Made by a program: the position numbers and the translations under genes. A DNA stretch of 39,241 nucleotides, taken from positions 1 to 39,241 of the IMG/VR virus record IMGVR_UViG_3300015262_000003. One strand, written 5' to 3'. Positions within the stretch are counted from its first letter, which is position 1; the number at the start of each line of letters is the position of its first letter. This stretch comes from a virus. The notes beneath the pieces are model-generated. The model ran no database searches, was not told where the DNA came from, and saw nothing but the letters and a program-made list of their open reading frames with translations. Below, piece after piece: positions 2,110-13,240 of this stretch.

Positions 2110-3453
2110 ATGAGTAAAGATGAACTAATTGAGGCGTATTCACTAATTGGCGTTAGAGGTATGCTTGCTGAAGGGTTATTTGATAACTTGACACTAGCTT
2201 TAGATAATGTAAATAATACTGCTGACTTCTTCAAACCTTTTAAACCTTTGAGTCGTGAATTTGCTGTCTTCGGTGATAGTCGAACTGCTCAATGTCATAC
2301 AATTGCAGCAACAGCCTTCTCCACTGAAAACTATGGTTATGCCTTTTGGGCTGCTCAAGTTTCCGGTGGCTTTTGTCCAACTACTAATAACTTCGGTGTT
2401 GGTGGTGATACTACAGCAATGATGTTAGCTCGTATTTCTGCTGTAGTTGCATGTCCAGCTGATATTGTATTGTTCATGGGTGGGACGAACGACCGTACTG
2501 GTGGAATGACTGTTGCTGATACCAAACGAAACATTATCTCGATTGTACGTCGCTTGCAGAAAGCAGGTAAGATTGTAATCGTCGGTAATGATACTCCGCG
2601 ATTTGGTAGTAAAGCATTAACAGCTCCACAACAACTTGACCATGAATCTATTCGTGATTGGGTAACTAATGAATTGTCCAAGATCACTCCTGTCGCTGAC
2701 ACTTATTCACTGATCAATCAGAGTGACTTGTGGGACGACCTTCATATAAACGTCAAAGGTGCATATAAGGTTGGTGCTCTAGGTTTTGGTCCTGTATTAG
2801 CTAAATACATTCGACTTGGTGTTGATCTTCCAACAGAATCAACAGACCTTTGGAGTGTTAACAATACAACTGGTAGCCTTACAGCAAATCCGCTGATGAC
2901 AGGTAATGTAACCCAAAGTACCGGGTCAGTCAATCCTGTCGCTGGTAGTGTGGTGGCAACAGGGTTTAAAGGTGCTGGTAGTGCGTTCACAGGAGTGACA
3001 ACACAGTGGTCTAAAGAAGCTGCCTTGTTTGGTGAGTCTCAAGTTATTGCATTTGCAGGAACAGCAACTACAGCTGCTGCTTATTTGGCTGTATCGCCAA
3101 CAGCGACATTCCCACTTGCTAACTTGTCAGCTGGTAATGTTATTAGTTTGATGTGTGGGTTTGATCTAATTGGCGACGGTGTTGGTATCCTTGGTGTAAC
3201 AGCTGAATTAATGGTAACTAAACCAGTAGCCTCAGTATCAACAACCATTTACTACCGTGATGGTGATAAATATGTAGATCCTCACTCGATGCCAGCTGGT
3301 GCTGTTTCAGGTGCGCTGGACACTCAACGTTATACTGTTGATGGTACAGAAACTGCAATTGTTGCACGAATTAGTATTTATTTGGCACAGAATGTTCCAC
3401 TTAATTCTTCGGTTAAGATTCGTCAGTTTGCAGTTCGCAAACACACAGCTTAA
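2110..3453 (+). CDS. Virion-associated SGNH/GDSL hydrolase
   Basis: This 447-residue protein carries the SGNH esterase blocks in order: G-D-S-R with nucleophile Ser57, the G-V-G-G-D oxyanion glycine (about 97-100), G-G-T-N-D (124-128) and D-D-L-H-I-N with Asp209 and His212. SGNH domains in phage virions usually deacetylate or cleave ester groups on host surface polysaccharide; the substrate here is unknown. Residues 240-447 are Gly/Thr/Ser-rich and probably beta-structured, consistent with a glycan-binding or trimerising tail. The first 25 residues (K-D-E-L-I-E-x-x-S-L-I-G-V-R-G) closely match the N-terminus of the head-fibre-like protein at 5813, suggesting a shared virion docking segment. 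It lies directly after the tRNA cluster and ends before a terminator. Confidence 0.85.
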   Translation: MSKDELIEAYSLIGVRGMLAEGLFDNLTLALDNVNNTADFFKPFKPLSREFAVFGDSRTAQCHTIAATAFSTENYGYAFWAAQVSGGFCPTTNNFGVGGDTTAMMLARISAVVACPADIVLFMGGTNDRTGGMTVADTKRNIISIVRRLQKAGKIVIVGNDTPRFGSKALTAPQQLDHESIRDWVTNELSKITPVADTYSLINQSDLWDDLHINVKGAYKVGALGFGPVLAKYIRLGVDLPTESTDLWSVNNTTGSLTANPLMTGNVTQSTGSVNPVAGSVVATGFKGAGSAFTGVTTQWSKEAALFGESQVIAFAGTATTAAAYLAVSPTATFPLANLSAGNVISLMCGFDLIGDGVGILGVTAELMVTKPVASVSTTIYYRDGDKYVDPHSMPAGAVSGALDTQRYTVDGTETAIVARISIYLAQNVPLNSSVKIRQFAVRKHTA

Positions 3454-3502
3454 AAAGAAATGATGTAGTAGTACCCTGAAGGCAGCACATATGTTGCCAT
3501 AA

Positions 3503-3515
3503 TAAGGAGGTGGTC
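3503..3515 (+). promoter_or_regulatory. Orphan near-perfect anti-16S (Shine-Dalgarno) sequence
   Basis: TAAGGAGGTGGTC matches 12 of 13 bases of the full complement of the 16S rRNA 3' end. No start codon lies at a useful distance: the internal GTG frame ends after five codons. AGGA and TCCT within it can form a small hairpin. It sits in the 3' untranslated region of the SGNH hydrolase gene, before the terminator. Confidence 0.4.
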
Positions 3516-3573
3516 CTATATCTCTAGGCCGTTTATCGAGGCGTAGTCAAAAAGTATCGGTTTTAAAAATAAC

Positions 3574-3610
3574 ATAAACCCAGCCTAAGTGCTGGGTTTA
3601 TTTGTATCTA
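3574..3610 (+). terminator. Rho-independent terminator
   Basis: An 11-bp perfect stem, ATAAACCCAGC (3574-3584) with GCTGGGTTTAT (3591-3601), has a 6-nt loop and is followed by TTGTATCTAT. The U tract is modest. It closes the tRNA/SGNH hydrolase transcript. Confidence 0.75.
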
Positions 3611-3625
3611 TAAGAGGTTAAATTT

Positions 3626-3976
3626 ATGAAAATGCTGCCACATAAAAGGGGTGATAGTTTCTCGCGTCTTACGGAAATTCCTGTAACAAATGAAGATGGT
3701 TCACCAGCATTTGCGGATGGTTATTTTGTAGGGTGGACAGTTCGTGCGCAAGTAAGGACAGCAAAGTTTGATAAATTCTTGTCAGAGTTGGAGTGTTCAT
3801 GGGTTGATCCTTTGACCACTAGAATCCTTAGAGTTCAAGATTTTGATACCAAAAATTGGGAACTTGGACCAGCTGAGATGGATGTTGAATTTACTCGTGT
3901 ATCTGACAACTTCATTCAATCAACTGCAACATTGAGTTTCGATGTTATTAAAGATGTAACTAGAGAAATTGTTTAA
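3626..3976 (+). CDS. Small beta-sandwich virion protein
   Basis: This 116-residue protein begins with K-R-G-D-S-F-S-R and alternates beta-strand-like segments (G-W-T-V-R-A-Q-V-R; T-R-I-L-R-V). It ends with W-E-L-G-P-A-E-M-D-V-E-F and a T-A-T-L-S-F-D-V-I strand. That pattern (R-R-G-D-T-F opening, an R-S-Q-V-R strand, then a D-I-x-F ending) recurs in small uncharacterised phage structural proteins next to fibre genes. A role as adaptor or decoration protein is inference from position. The ribosome binding site is AAGAGGT. The stop overlaps the next start (TAATG). Confidence 0.65.
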   Translation: MKMLPHKRGDSFSRLTEIPVTNEDGSPAFADGYFVGWTVRAQVRTAKFDKFLSELECSWVDPLTTRILRVQDFDTKNWELGPAEMDVEFTRVSDNFIQSTATLSFDVIKDVTREIV

Positions 3977-4173
3977 TGGACACTATCACACTTAAATTTA
4001 CTAATGAACAACCAACACTCATATTGATGCCAGTTGAACCACAAAATGCACCAGCTTCATTTGTAAGTGTGTTGGTTGGTGAGAAAGGTCAATCAGGTGA
4101 TATTGGTGTAACGGATGATCTAGATGGTTTTACCACAGATCCACTATTCTACTACATACTAGCGAGTACATAA
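3976..4173 (+). CDS. Short collagen-like-motif virion protein (65 aa)
   Basis: The ATG overlaps the previous stop as TAATG. The first 40 residues look beta-structured. G-E-K-G-Q-S-G-D-I-G near residues 36-45 gives three collagen-type G-x-y steps, a motif often found in phage fibre shafts. The C-terminus contains a D-D-L-D-G-F-T-T-D segment. I do not recognise a family. Neighbours suggest a small part of the same fibre or decoration assembly. Confidence 0.6.
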   Translation: MDTITLKFTNEQPTLILMPVEPQNAPASFVSVLVGEKGQSGDIGVTDDLDGFTTDPLFYYILAST

Positions 4174-4174
4174 A

Positions 4175-4666
4175 ATGTCATTACAAGATCAACTTGTTTC
4201 ATTGTGCCAAGCAATCGGCGCAGATATCAAAGCAGCTAAAGCAGTTGATGGTAATCTTTCGTCTCTGTCAACATCTGCTAAAACTAACTTGGTAGCAGCA
4301 ATCAATGAAATTTATGCATTGGTTGGAACTGGTGGTGTTACGATAAATGACGCCAGCACTGTAAGTACAACTCAAACTTGGTCAGCAAGTAAATCAACAG
4401 CTGCCATCGCCGCTGCAATATCGTCACTTCAAAACTCTCTGGTCAATGGCGCTGGTACTGCACTGGATACACTTAAGGAGTTAGAAACAGCTCTTGGTGG
4501 TGACGCCAACTTCGCGGCAACAGTAGCAACATCACTCGGTAATCGTGTTCGTTTTGATGCTGTTCAAACTCTTACATCTGGTCAACAACTGCAAGCTTTG
4601 ACTAACCTTGGCGTGGGTGATCCTACTCATAACTATGTCACTGACTACAACACAGCTAAGGCTTAA
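4175..4666 (+). CDS. Fibre-like structural protein
   Basis: This 163-residue protein opens with L-x-x-L-C-Q-A-I-G-A-D-I-K, shared with the next protein. It continues with S-T-S-A-K-T-N-L-V-A-A-I-N-E-I, a phrase typical of phage fibres, then T-Q-T-W-S-A-S-K-S-T-A-A-I, a D-T-L-K-E-L-E-T-A-L-G-G-D helix and G-N-R-V-R-F-D-A-V-Q-T-L-T-S. This helical repeat-like composition resembles shaft segments of Pseudomonas-type tail or head fibres, usually parts of much larger proteins; here the shaft stands alone. It has no receptor-binding tip of its own, so it may partner the following genes. Two nt separate it from both neighbours. Confidence 0.7.
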   Translation: MSLQDQLVSLCQAIGADIKAAKAVDGNLSSLSTSAKTNLVAAINEIYALVGTGGVTINDASTVSTTQTWSASKSTAAIAAAISSLQNSLVNGAGTALDTLKELETALGGDANFAATVATSLGNRVRFDAVQTLTSGQQLQALTNLGVGDPTHNYVTDYNTAKA

Positions 4667-4668
4667 TT

Positions 4669-5151
4669 ATGAGCCAAGAGACTGAACTGACAGCGTTAGC
4701 TCAGGCAATTGGTGCTGATATCAAAAGTCTGAACACTAACAAGGTTTCTGTTGTAGCAGGTAAAGGACTATCTACTAATGATTATACAACAGTTGAGAAA
4801 ACTAAACTAGGTACAACATTGGCTCCGGGATATGACAACTTACTGGTGAATGCTGCATCAACAGGCACAGTAACTTTGAACGTTTCAAGTACAACTGTTT
4901 TCAACCTGACATTGACTGGTAATACTACAATTGCTTTCTCTGGTGTGCCTACACCAACAAACCAAAGTTATAGTTGGCTTGTAAGGGTTACTATGGGTGG
5001 TACAACTCGTACATTGACGTGGCCAACAGTCACTTGGTATACACCGGGAGGCATTCCACCAGATCCACCAGCTATCGGTAAAGTAGTTGAGTATATCTTT
5101 AGTACAGAGAACGGAACAACCATCTTTGGTGGTAAAGGTCGATATACATGA
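4669..5151 (+). CDS. Fibre-like structural protein, paralogous N-terminus
   Basis: The first 20 residues (L-T-A-L-A-Q-A-I-G-A-D-I-K) repeat the start of the preceding protein, pointing to a duplicated attachment segment. It is followed by G-K-G-L-S-T-N-D-Y-T-T-V-E-K-T-K-L, a common phage fibre linker. Residues 60-160 form a beta-rich domain (T-V-F-N-L-T-L-T-G-N-T-T-I-A-F, then W-P-T-V-T-W-Y-T-P-G-G) like small jelly-roll domains at the ends of phage fibres. The stop overlaps the next ATG (ATGA). Probable role: virion fibre or decoration, on context and composition. Confidence 0.7.
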   Translation: MSQETELTALAQAIGADIKSLNTNKVSVVAGKGLSTNDYTTVEKTKLGTTLAPGYDNLLVNAASTGTVTLNVSSTTVFNLTLTGNTTIAFSGVPTPTNQSYSWLVRVTMGGTTRTLTWPTVTWYTPGGIPPDPPAIGKVVEYIFSTENGTTIFGGKGRYT

Positions 5152-5783
5152 GTCTAGCTAAACTTCTTTGGACTATCCCAACAGTACCTACTGATGTTCC
5201 AGCAATCGGGAGTGCTTGGCAAGGTGGCTATTACGGTGGAAAGATTGTAATTGATGGAACTACATATGGATTGGTTGTATCACCTAAAGCAACTGGGCAA
5301 GGGTATCTTGTTTACAGAACTTCAGGCGCTGCATTCACAGGTAATACATCAACTTATGATGGTTGGACAATCAGAGCGAATATGATTGCAGCTGGTATTG
5401 ATGACTTTCCAGCGCAGAAGGCTTGCATGGGTTTGACAATTGGTGGATTCACTGATTGGTATATGCCTTCCAAGTTGGAGATGGAGATAATCTATCGTAA
5501 CCTGAAACCAACAACTACATCAAACAACACTTCATCTGGCGCGAATGCTTATGCTGTTCCTCCAACAATCAACTATGTTGCCACAAACCCAACTAGAACA
5601 GTCGTAACAGCGTTTAGGTCTACAGGTACTGAATTCTTCGACAGTTCTTACTACTTTACAGCAACACAAGGTATTGATGGTAACACATATGCACATGGTA
5701 AGTTATTTACTTCAGGTGTAGACGGTGCGGATTTATATACTGCACCTTATAACGTAAGAGCAATTCGAAGAGTTGCTGTTTAA
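5148..5783 (+). CDS. Lcl_C/DUF1566-like (C-type-lectin-like) virion protein
   Basis: This 211-residue protein contains G-G-F-T-D-W-Y-M-P-S-K-L-E-M near residues 104-117 and ends with the A-P-Y-N-V-R-A-I-R-R-V strand. These are hallmarks of the Lcl_C/DUF1566 domain, which is related to the formylglycine-generating-enzyme and C-type lectin folds. Such domains in phages usually bind ligands at fibre tips. The N-terminal third has G-G-Y-Y-G-G-K-I and Y-G-L-V-V-S-P-K, also typical. The start overlaps the previous stop (ATGA), so it is probably the distal partner of the fibre-like proteins upstream. No reverse transcriptase or variable repeat is present, so it is not part of a diversity-generating system here. 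Confidence 0.72.
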   Translation: MSLAKLLWTIPTVPTDVPAIGSAWQGGYYGGKIVIDGTTYGLVVSPKATGQGYLVYRTSGAAFTGNTSTYDGWTIRANMIAAGIDDFPAQKACMGLTIGGFTDWYMPSKLEMEIIYRNLKPTTTSNNTSSGANAYAVPPTINYVATNPTRTVVTAFRSTGTEFFDSSYYFTATQGIDGNTYAHGKLFTSGVDGADLYTAPYNVRAIRRVAV

Positions 5784-5812
5784 ATCAAATCAATCAAAAG
5801 GAAACTATAAAT

Positions 5813-6097
5813 ATGGCTATTACAACTCGTGCCGAACTAATCGAAACTCTGTCGCTGCTTGGTGTTATGGGTGCTGCTCGTGAAGGCTTGCTGGATGCAA
5901 TGTTTGCGGCTGGTGGTTATACTCTCCCCGCTGCAAGTACAACTGTAGTTGGTGGTGTCAAGAAGGCTGTAGCTGTTCCAGACCTTGCCGCACAAACAGT
6001 AACTGATATTGCAACTGCCCAAACCGCAATTACTGCAATTGTTACTAAGCTCAATGCTTTGCTTGCAGCTTCTCGTACAGCTGGTCAGCTCACTTAA
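5813..6097 (+). CDS. Head-fibre-like small virion protein
   Basis: This 94-residue protein starts with R-A-E-L-I-E-T-L-S-L-L-G-V-M-G, nearly the same as the SGNH hydrolase N-terminus. Y-T-L-P-A-A-S-T-T-V-V-G-G-V-K follows, then V-P-D-L-A-A and a helical end (A-I-V-T-K-L-N-A-L-L-A-A). This order matches the phage head fibre family (Phage_fiber_2 type), whose members decorate capsids. The ribosome binding site AAAGGAAA precedes the ATG. A strong terminator follows at once. It lies just before the terminase genes, the usual neighbourhood for head accessory proteins. Confidence 0.7.
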   Translation: MAITTRAELIETLSLLGVMGAAREGLLDAMFAAGGYTLPAASTTVVGGVKKAVAVPDLAAQTVTDIATAQTAITAIVTKLNALLAASRTAGQLT

Positions 6098-7189: not shown

Positions 7190-8701
7190 ATGTCTAAGAC
7201 AGACATTGCTGTTCGTCCTCAGTCTCCTTTTCAAGAGAAGTATCTGAAGTCAGATGCAAAGATTCTAGTAGTTGGTGGTGCGGCTGGTTCTAGTAAGTCT
7301 TATGTCGGATTGATGCGACATCTAAGATTTGTCAACGATCCTGATTATCGCGGTTTCTGTATTCGTAAGAACAGTACAGCAATTATGAAAGCGGGTGGTT
7401 TGTTTGAACAAGCAGTTCGACTATACTCCAAAGTATATCCTAAGATTCAAATCAAACTTAAAGAACAAAAGATTGTATTCCCAAGTGGTGCATCTGTTAG
7501 TTTCTCGCACTATGAGAATGACAGCGCCGGTCTTTTGTATCAAGGTCTTGAACTATCAAGTGTCTTCTACGACGAAGGTACACACGCTGATGAATCACAC
7601 TTGTGGTGGTTGTTTTCACGTCTACGTACTGAAGCAAAGATGGAACCTTGTATGTGGGTTAGTTGTAACCCTGATCCTGATAGCTTCTTGTTTGATTGGG
7701 TCAAATGGTGGCTCTACCCTGAAGGTCATGAGAAATATGGTCTTCCTGATCCTGCTAAGAATGGTGTTACACGATACCTTCTGCGTATTGGTGGTGATCT
7801 TATTTGGGGTGATACTTGGCAAGAACTTTATGATAAACATAAGAAGCCTGATCTTCCAGTTGATCATGAAGACCAAGTAAGGCCGATTCCATTCCAAGTG
7901 TTGCTCGGTACATTGTACGACAACCCAACGTTAATGAAGTCTAACCCAAACTATAAAGCTGCGCTTGAGGCATTGCCTGATGTTGAGCGTAGACGTTTGC
8001 TGTTAGGTGACTGGACGGCTCGTGAAGAAGGTAGCACATACTTTCAACGTGAGTGGTGTGGTGAACAAGCCATTGATGAACCTCCTGCAAGTGAAATTCT
8101 TCGCACGGTAAGAGCATACGACTTTGCTGGTACATTAAAGACATCAGCAAATCCAAGTCCCGATTATACAGCATCTGCTCGTGTTAGCAAGTTAAAGAAT
8201 GGTGATTTCTTCGTTCATGACGTGCAACGTACACGAATATTATTTGGTGATTGGGAGAAGTTTGTTCTTGAGAATGCAGCAAGAGATGGATTCAATACTG
8301 AGATTCTTATTCCACTTGACCCCGGCGCATCCGCAAAGGTTGCCACTAGTTTGCTCACAAGAGCAATTGGGGAAAAAGGCTACAGAGTACGAACACTTAA
8401 AACGACACAAAGTAAGCTAGACCGATTCAGACCTTTCTCTTCTCTAGCAATGAATGGTCATATCAAGTTCTTAAAAGGATGTGGATATGATTATGAAAAC
8501 AACATTGAAGCTGATAACAACTTCGTTTACAGAGAGCTTGAAGCTTTCAACGGTAAACGTCGTGGTGGTGAATCAGGACACGATGATATGTGTGACGCCT
8601 TGAGTGACACCATTTCAATTCTAGCACAAAGAGTAAATATTCCAAATATGTCAGCAGCGCTTGCGTCTGTGAACATGTCAACTAAAACACCCTTCAGCTA
8701 A
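7190..8701 (+). CDS. terL: Terminase large subunit
   Basis: This 503-residue protein is the packaging ATPase and nuclease. The N-terminal ATPase has a Walker A-like G-G-A-A-G-S-S-K-S (29-37), Walker B V-F-Y-D-E-G (125-130) and the coupling motif S-C-N-P-D-P (158-163). The C-terminal RNase H-like nuclease has three acidic sites: A-Y-D-F-A-G near 310, I-P-L-D-P-G near 375 and G-H-D-D-M-C-D-A near 464. Length is normal for the family. AAGGAG lies just before the ATG. It acts at the portal vertex of the empty head and is followed 9 nt later by the portal gene. Confidence 0.95.
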   Translation: MSKTDIAVRPQSPFQEKYLKSDAKILVVGGAAGSSKSYVGLMRHLRFVNDPDYRGFCIRKNSTAIMKAGGLFEQAVRLYSKVYPKIQIKLKEQKIVFPSGASVSFSHYENDSAGLLYQGLELSSVFYDEGTHADESHLWWLFSRLRTEAKMEPCMWVSCNPDPDSFLFDWVKWWLYPEGHEKYGLPDPAKNGVTRYLLRIGGDLIWGDTWQELYDKHKKPDLPVDHEDQVRPIPFQVLLGTLYDNPTLMKSNPNYKAALEALPDVERRRLLLGDWTAREEGSTYFQREWCGEQAIDEPPASEILRTVRAYDFAGTLKTSANPSPDYTASARVSKLKNGDFFVHDVQRTRILFGDWEKFVLENAARDGFNTEILIPLDPGASAKVATSLLTRAIGEKGYRVRTLKTTQSKLDRFRPFSSLAMNGHIKFLKGCGYDYENNIEADNNFVYRELEAFNGKRRGGESGHDDMCDALSDTISILAQRVNIPNMSAALASVNMSTKTPFS

Positions 8702-12095: not shown

Positions 12096-12118
12096 GAAGC
12101 ACTTTGAGAAAGTGCTTC
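12096..12118 (+). other. Intercistronic 9-bp hairpin before capsid gene
   Basis: GAAGCACTT and AAGTGCTTC form a perfect 9-bp stem with loop TGAGA. No U tract follows, so it is more likely an mRNA stabilising or processing element than a full terminator. It would protect the 5' end of the capsid message. Confidence 0.55.
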
Positions 12119-12142
12119 ATCCTCTTATATAAGGAATATGAA

Positions 12143-13240
12143 ATGACTTTGATTATCGACAAGAATATTGACCGCCTGAGCCAAGGTAAGTTTGTAGAGC
12201 TTACTGACATTCTGGTAGAAATCCCGCGTAACGTAAGTGTTATCGATGCACTGAATCTGTTTGATGATGTTTACCTGACCCAAAAGAAATTCGAAATTCA
12301 ACGTGTTCAGTACAGCAACCATCTGATCAAGGATAAGAATTGGGATGAGAAAGCTGACACCATCGTTGGTCGTCCAGTTCGTGGTTTCATCCAAGGTAAG
12401 ATTCCACACTTCCCAATGATCGACGCTATCAAGCCATCGGACATTGACGGTATCGCTTCGGTTAGTTCGATCCAAGAAGCTGCTGGTCTGGAAACTGTAA
12501 TGGATGTTCGTATCGAGAAGCTGTCCACCATCACCAACGCTTATGACCTGACTGAAGACGTTGCTAAAATGCAGCTGTTGACCAAAGGTACAGTATATGC
12601 ACCAGCTGGTACTCTGGCCACATCGTATGGCGACACCATCGACTTCTACCAAGAAATGGGTGTAACTCGTCAGACTATCAACCTTGAACTGTCCGGTGCT
12701 AACGATCCACGTATCAGTGTTTCGAATCTGGTTCGTAAGATGCGTGAAGCTCTGCGTAACAGTTCTAGCAATGGTAACTACAAGTCGCTGGTAGTTCTGT
12801 GCGGTACTGATTACTTCGACGCTGTTTACACCAACCCGTTCGTAACTGACACTGTTAAGCAGTTCAACCAAGACCTGTCGAAACTGTTGCTGCAAACTCC
12901 AGATACCGCACAAGGTTACGATGCTAACTTCCGTAGCGTTAACGTTTGGGGTGTAGTGTTCATCGATGCTGGTACTGGTGGTTATGATGGTCCAGATGGT
13001 GTGTTTGTTCCGTGGATTGCTGCTGATAAAGCGATTGCTCTGCCAACTGGTGTTCGTGGTATGTTCAAGACTCTGTACGCTCCAGCTAACACTTTCAGCA
13101 CCATCAACAAGCGTTCAGCCGGTCGTTACTACTTCGAACGTCTGAACGAAGAAGATGACCTGATCCAAATGAAAGCTGAACAGAACTTCATGAATGCTCT
13201 GATCTACCCAGCTGCTGTATTCGATCTCACCAAGTCCTAA
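12143..13240 (+). CDS. Major capsid protein (lambda E-like)
   Basis: AAGGA at 12131-12135 precedes the ATG at 12143; a longer frame from 12104 starts inside a hairpin and is not used. The 365-residue product fits the lambda gpE family (Phage_cap_E). Its N-terminal part has P-R-G-... like F-E-I-Q-R-V-Q-Y (50-57), then I-P-H-F-P-M-I-D-A-I-K-P-S-D-I-D (87-102), the conserved phrase of the family. The C-terminal half carries the HK97-fold A-domain strands. Leu, Asn and Thr codons are strongly biased to CTG, AAC and ACT compared with neighbours, as expected of the most abundant virion protein. Confidence 0.92.
   Translation: MTLIIDKNIDRLSQGKFVELTDILVEIPRNVSVIDALNLFDDVYLTQKKFEIQRVQYSNHLIKDKNWDEKADTIVGRPVRGFIQGKIPHFPMIDAIKPSDIDGIASVSSIQEAAGLETVMDVRIEKLSTITNAYDLTEDVAKMQLLTKGTVYAPAGTLATSYGDTIDFYQEMGVTRQTINLELSGANDPRISVSNLVRKMREALRNSSSNGNYKSLVVLCGTDYFDAVYTNPFVTDTVKQFNQDLSKLLLQTPDTAQGYDANFRSVNVWGVVFIDAGTGGYDGPDGVFVPWIAADKAIALPTGVRGMFKTLYAPANTFSTINKRSAGRYYFERLNEEDDLIQMKAEQNFMNALIYPAAVFDLTKS

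Follow-up and report, generated by a model that had tools for sequence, protein, structure and literature searches.

The first 39,241 nucleotides of the 103-kb IMG/VR virus record IMGVR_UViG_3300015262_000003 (positions 1 to 39,241, the window in what follows) encode an SGNH hydrolase and a small head-fibre protein that begin with the same short segment. We consider it quite likely that this N-terminus of ∼25 residues is a modular anchor that plugs different proteins into the head of the phage at one type of site, most probably the central pocket of the capsid hexamers. An initial annotation, prepared from the letters of the sequence, had described the two open reading frames (ORFs; 2110-3453, 447 aa, and 5813-6097, 94 aa), which exist as given there, and had proposed that their common N-terminus is an exchangeable plug.

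A segment shared by two otherwise different proteins

Residues 2-27 of the hydrolase, SKDELIEAYSLIGVRGMLAEGLFDNL, align without a gap with residues 5-30 of the head-fibre protein, TRAELIETLSLLGVMGAAREGLLDAM, 13 of the 26 positions being identical and 17 similar (BLASTP of the pair, E=4e-6). The same comparison gives no other significant alignment outside the segment, which bears out the annotation's description of nearly identical N-termini on proteins that otherwise differ. Scored without gaps over 25 columns (BLOSUM62), the pair reaches 59, against a mean of -19.9, a standard deviation of 11.6 and a maximum of 39 in 100,000 shuffles (z=6.8).

Profiles were used to follow the segment through other genomes because it is too short and divergent for tblastn, which found zero matches among GenBank phages with either the 94-aa protein or its 33-residue N-terminus. 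The pooled profile A1, made from 15 N-termini and searched over 5,873 ORFs from whole phage genomes, matches 53 ORFs at E<=0.05, all of them at the protein start once upstream start codons are allowed for. The next ORF has E=2.8, and the best control values are E=1.2 in reversed and 0.36 in shuffled ORFs. The 103-kb genome itself contains two profile matches only, the hydrolase and the head-fibre protein. With a profile restricted to hydrolase N-termini, the window head-fibre protein is the top non-hydrolase match among 6,833 ORFs (E=2.5e-5); later matches are nearly all head-fibre proteins, a hydrolase frame that is truncated being among them, and clear false matches begin at E=7. The reverse test is weaker. 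N-termini of window-type head-fibre proteins reach hydrolases at E=0.04-0.19 (first false match E=3.3), and with 20 head-fibre N-termini pooled, the profile misses the window and Otagovirus hydrolases at E<10. The link between the two families therefore depends on three results: the alignment of the pair, the hydrolase-only profile and the pooled profile. On these comparisons of sequence, the homology of the two segments is confirmed as real. The fold of the segment is probably helical, to judge from the models.

The label of a head-fibre-like protein given to the 94-aa product was also correct: it matches Pfam PF11133 with 35.7 bits (curated cut-off 24.6; E=8.4e-9) and phi29 gp8.5 with E=3.2e-6, and further matches crAss001 gp21 and B2 gp45. 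The PF11133 match covers only profile positions 209-276 of 277. The window protein, in which ∼34 residues precede the C-terminal domain, lacks the beta-tulip base by which the N-terminus of such head fibres contacts the capsid.

The hydrolase carries the conserved SGNH/GDSL blocks (Ser, Gly, Asn, Asp-x-x-His), and its Ser57 (in GDSR), Gly98, Asn127, Asp209 and His212 stand at alignment positions that are invariant across nine homologues. Ser57 is the putative catalytic residue, Gly98 and Asn127 are the putative oxyanion positions, and Asp209-x-x-His212 forms the Asp-x-x-His block. In the predicted structure the SGNH domain is followed by a beta-sandwich for which Foldseek returns structures of the CBM4/11/16/22/27/28 families and a tailspike. 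In fold the model resembles acetyl-esterases and related enzymes of the SGNH type, a two-domain acetyl-mannan esterase being the best match overall. This fold together with the sandwich suggests that the predicted substrate is an O-acetylated surface polysaccharide. Neither window carrier has an Ig domain by Pfam or PHROG, unlike decoration proteins of the Hoc/pb10 type.

Passengers of the segment and its link to the head type

Profile searches of whole genomes from related Pseudomonas phages find the segment, always N-terminal, ahead of no fewer than five C-terminal parts unrelated to one another; the listing of joined domains that the annotation had proposed as a check therefore does return several unrelated partners. 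Matches are strong for the head-fibre proteins, which are 71-94 aa long and longer in UAVern, PPSC2 and PAK_P3, for the PHROG 6102 family of SGNH hydrolases (window, L014/G005, L043, phiK7A1 and many phages of Otagovirus) and for a 609-aa tailspike-like depolymerase of G005 (E=4e-9). They are weaker, with E about 1e-3 to 1e-6, for PHB09 gp031 (516 aa), in which segment and SGNH domain are connected by another linker; for the ∼145-aa phrog_36221 family of VCM, Psxphi15, ventosus and G009, in which a Gly-rich linker (Gly5) directly follows the segment and which, though weaker, recurs in orthologues; and for small proteins of 122, 133 and 140 aa in G009, G012 and PPSC2. Two or three carriers each are found in 13 genomes. 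The match in G016 is to a truncated hydrolase frame.

The G005 protein is taken as a tailspike because its residues 43-113 match tailspike-type tail-protein PHROGs and because it weakly matches the Klebsiella K64-1 S2-3 lyase; phmmer against the Protein Data Bank (PDB) gave no match. Its gene (L046:7541-9370, minus strand; G005 52540-54369) lies far from the structural genes, amid apparently non-structural ones. At the end of a linear record, PAK_P3 gp165 (L123:2091-2516) is a 141-aa head-fibre protein with the segment, which therefore also occurs in Nankokuvirus. The record does not flag gp165 as detected by mass spectrometry, and it does not count here among the evidence from virions.

The same passengers also stand behind other N-termini. 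In Lauda (56% identical) and MR14 the match to the hydrolase begins only at residue 43-45, and the profile finds no segment in either genome. Contigs encoding a ∼50% identical head-fibre C-terminal domain give it a quite different N-terminus of ∼100 residues. Residues 27/39-609 of the G005 tailspike recur at 81-84% identity behind at least three further N-termini; profile searches find no segment in these two sets of contigs either. Tailspike, hydrolase and head-fibre domains thus provide direct evidence that N-terminal modules are exchanged.

What the segment does follow is the capsid. We scanned 61 records for both the segment and the capsid family Phage_cap_E, which is present in 35 of 36 segment carriers, the exception being a 13.9-kb fragment; sampling was partly by capsid-protein similarity, which inflates this figure. 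The cleaner half of the comparison is given by 20 records found through passenger similarity, which share a passenger, lack the segment and in no case have Phage_cap_E. The remaining five records (SYP, phiPMW, PAK_P1, DC31 and Felix O1) have the capsid family without the segment. From these sequence counts, presence of the segment follows the head type rather than the cargo.

Comparison of two phage groups points the same way. The window phage has a siphovirus-type tail module after its capsid genes, and among named phages it is closest, in its head genes, to the Pseudomonas phages vB_PpS_SYP and phiPMW. By BLASTP and phmmer it is homologous to the Otagovirus-type myoviruses phiK7A1 or PhiPsa374 in terminase (37%), portal (36%), protease region and capsid protein (26-28%), and also in one neck-region protein; the same searches detect no homology between the tail modules. 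As the head module is homologous and the tails show no detectable homology, a place of attachment that both groups share would most probably lie on the head, with the neck as a less likely position.

The annotation had cast one protein as the enzyme and the other as a placeholder for the same site, which is too simple. Hydrolase and head-fibre protein coexist in many genomes; close relatives of the window phage, L009-L013, have the head fibre and no hydrolase, whereas in L014 the hydrolase directly adjoins the head-fibre gene; and phiK7A1, 16Q and Ep020 have the hydrolase without a head-fibre carrier. Sites would accordingly be shared or partitioned rather than strictly exchanged.

The site of attachment

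The nearest structural precedent is crAss001 gp21 (PDB 7qof/8ckb), whose layout resembles that of the window protein: a short N-terminal anchor (aa 1-38), sitting as a trimer in a pocket at the hexon centre, precedes a phi29 gp8.5-like domain (aa 42-97) (PMC10172136). The crAss001 capsid is T=9, its hexons lie in two environments, and it bears fibres of two kinds; no anchor common to gp21 and its dimeric companion gp29 is reported there, nor the gp21 anchor on an enzyme, unlike the case of the window carriers (PMC10172136). B2 gp45, a 99-aa homotrimer of the head-fibre family, occupies the quasi-6-fold axes of a T=9 capsid (PDB 9d82; PMC11654681); it matches the window protein weakly and in the C-terminal part only, and its capsid is that of a Schitoviridae podophage. 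In phi29 gp8.5 (PF11133) the C-terminal domain is homologous to that of the window protein, which lacks the phi29-type N-terminal base. T5 pb10 (PMC5292684) and Sf14 gp20 (PMC11821841) bind hexamer centres through an N-terminal helical domain. Together with T4 Hoc they resemble the proposed arrangement in joining a helical capsid-binding domain to one or more exposed domains and in using the hexamer centre as an optional docking site; they differ in their larger anchors (118 aa in Sf14), their Ig-like passengers and their single protein per phage.

By analogy, we propose that the anchor forms two short helices around invariant glycines and would sit in the pocket at the hexamer centre. One window passenger would be a small, presumably trimeric head fibre, probably promoting adhesion; the other would be an SGNH hydrolase like polysaccharide O-acetyl-esterases, with a sandwich resembling carbohydrate-binding modules, that could trim or hold the polysaccharide of the host surface when displayed on the capsid. 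A default head fibre and optional enzymes would then use the same hexamer-pocket plug. Of the exchangeable plug first suggested, exchangeability is supported by the several partners, by the partners with other N-termini and by the tracking of the capsid family; docking on the head, like the hexamer pocket, the oligomeric state and the substrate, we infer, the on-capsid site because homologues of the head fibre have been placed on capsids, because head and not tail genes are shared and because N-terminal anchors at hexamer centres are known.

Evidence from virions comes from PhiPsa374, which carries both window-type proteins, each with the segment, in the same genomic setting as in the window and in Otagovirus relatives (tRNAs - hydrolase - ... 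- head fibre - terminase). Its phrog_6102 hydrolase gp053 was found in virions, whose capsid is T=9, with 42 peptides and 94% coverage (PMC9796965), so a hydrolase of this family is a virion component in that relative. The mass-spectrometric check that the annotation had proposed is thereby answered in that phage for the hydrolase and not for the small head-fibre protein.

Several results weigh against this reading or limit it. The head-fibre protein of PhiPsa374, 75 aa long, is missing from the published virion proteome table, although gel-based proteomics can overlook proteins of that size; the authors label gp053 a tail fibre, its N-terminus in common with the head-fibre protein going unmentioned in the available part of the report, and the abundance of gp053 there (AUC 1.51E8) is close to the values for the tail fibres (1.8-2.9E8) and the portal (7.8E7) (PMC9796965). 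In SYP and phiPMW, whose capsid protein is closely related, the segment is absent. The N-terminus of crAss001 gp21 shows no convincing similarity to the segment, only the C-terminal parts aligning well. Hydrolase and head-fibre segments are not clearly closer within a lineage than between lineages, so that co-adaptation to one capsid is not seen. AlphaFold2 models of the segment are of low confidence, the mean pLDDT being 58.8 for the head-fibre monomer and 59.8 for the hydrolase.

The PhiPsa374 label and abundance would suit an anchor to neck, tail or baseplate, with the hydrolase and the 'head fibre' as tail-associated receptor-binding proteins, as would the neck-region protein common to both phage groups and the fibre-like ORFs with tail-fibre PHROG matches in the same cassette. 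We nevertheless regard this as unlikely: the carriers occur in siphovirus-type and contractile-tailed phages with homologous head modules and no detectable tail homology, in phi29, crAss001 and B2, the three phages where it is solved, the head-fibre domain sits on the capsid, and the two genes adjoin the terminase, outside the tail module. It is less probable again that the segment serves fibre-like proteins as a cap for trimerisation or folding and has no fixed partner, attachment being made through other parts. Its small size, its probably helical and amphipathic character and its constant N-terminal place would suit such a cap, and the families of several passengers form trimers elsewhere; but tailspike, hydrolase and head-fibre domains exist without the segment, which is therefore not needed for them to fold or trimerise, and a generic cap would not be expected to follow a capsid family. 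Chance or convergent likeness of two amphipathic helices, for which the short, hydrophobic pattern and the poor reach of head-fibre-only profiles might speak, is very improbable and in our judgement already shown wrong by the pairwise score, by the lead that head-fibre proteins take among the foreign matches of the hydrolase-only profile, and by the recurrence of the segment in the genomes with several carriers.

Capsid anchors with exposed domains are already known, and one short anchor for a fibre and several enzymes would be the new element; among the open-licence papers searched, we found no such case. Accounts of capsid decoration usually give each site of a phage a single protein whose domains serve adhesion or cementing. 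Reading the segment as a hexamer plug leads to a broader proposal, whose chances we hold to be evenly balanced: that heads of the Phage_cap_E type are a general capsid 'socket' for a transferable ∼25-residue plug, that virions display mixtures of fibres, esterases and depolymerases on their hexamers, and that the cassettes cross between siphovirus-type and contractile-tailed phages. If so, any gene gaining the plug would place its product on the capsid. Reuse of one short anchor by a fibre, esterases and a depolymerase would in itself mean that exchangeable enzymes are carried by capsids as well as tails. It would also account for a group of proteins that annotations at present call tail fibre, lipase or hypothetical, and would yield a natural, sequence-defined tag for protein display on T=9-type heads.

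The cassette between the tRNAs and the terminase

Positions of the features are collected in Table 1. Three tRNAs are followed by the hydrolase, the fibre-like ORFs, the head-fibre protein, a terminase-adjacent gene and the large terminase (7190-8701); portal, protease, a protein of decoration size and the major capsid protein follow.

Table 1. Coordinates in the window of the segment carriers, their parts and associated genes
Feature	Position	Strand	Evidence
SGNH/GDSL hydrolase with shared N-terminal segment, 447 aa	2110..3453	+	ORF; PF13472 E=6.9e-19; phrog_6102 E=2.3e-105 over aa 45-446
Shared candidate anchor segment in hydrolase, aa 2-27	2113..2190	+	BLASTP with head-fibre protein E=4e-6; genome profile match E=8.5e-14; low-confidence predicted helix aa 3-20
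SGNH catalytic domain, aa 53-217	2266..2760	+	PF13472; residue columns invariant in 9 homologues; fold match to SGNH esterases
Hydrolase C-terminal beta-sandwich, aa 286-445, carbohydrate-binding-module-like	2965..3444	+	AlphaFold2 model (moderate confidence); Foldseek
Five fibre-like ORFs between the carriers, without segment (3626-3976, 3976-4173, 4175-4666, 4669-5151, 5148-5783)	3626..5783	+	ORFs; PHROG
Head-fibre protein with shared N-terminal segment, 94 aa	5813..6097	+	ORF; PF11133 above cut-off; PDB matches 6qvk, 3qc7, 7qof
Shared candidate anchor segment in head-fibre protein, aa 5-30	5825..5902	+	BLASTP; profile match E=1.7e-15; low-confidence predicted helix-turn-helix aa 6-33
phi29 gp8.5 / crAss001 gp21-type C-terminal fibre domain, aa 35-93	5915..6091	+	PF11133, PDB matches; predicted long helix aa 63-89
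Major capsid protein (Phage_cap_E), presumed docking partner	12104..13240	+	PF03864 E=2.8e-28; 26-28% identity to PhiPsa374 and phiK7A1 capsid proteins

The phage phiK7A1 has a contractile tail and a head related only distantly to that of the window phage, and the hydrolases of the two share 83% identity; the genes after the hydrolase are similar in both, with the fibre-like ORFs in the same order. The stretch between the tRNA cluster and the terminase (1699-2077 and on to 7190) is the variable site in both phage groups: none of this cargo is present there in phiPMW, the head fibre alone in L009-L013, and seven genes for fibres or enzymes in the window.

Two of the fibre-like ORFs, 4175-4666 and 4669-5151, match tail-fibre PHROGs and have another N-terminus in common (...QAIGADIKAA / ...QAIGADIKSL). 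Pairs of the same type occur as phiK7A1_062/063 and in Ep020 (L101:1105-1590, 1587-2447), which gives the cassette another N-terminal motif common to two proteins. The phiK7A1 cassette also encodes a second SGNH hydrolase, phiK7A1_064 (L003:23057-24424), with a weakly CE2_N-like N-terminal region and without the segment. The window ORF at 3626-3976 (116 aa) is 58% identical to phiK7A1_060 and to an Ep020 protein; at 28-35% identity it is also related to proteins of N4-like phages, among them, over part of their length, the L-shaped tail fibres of those that infect Erwinia.

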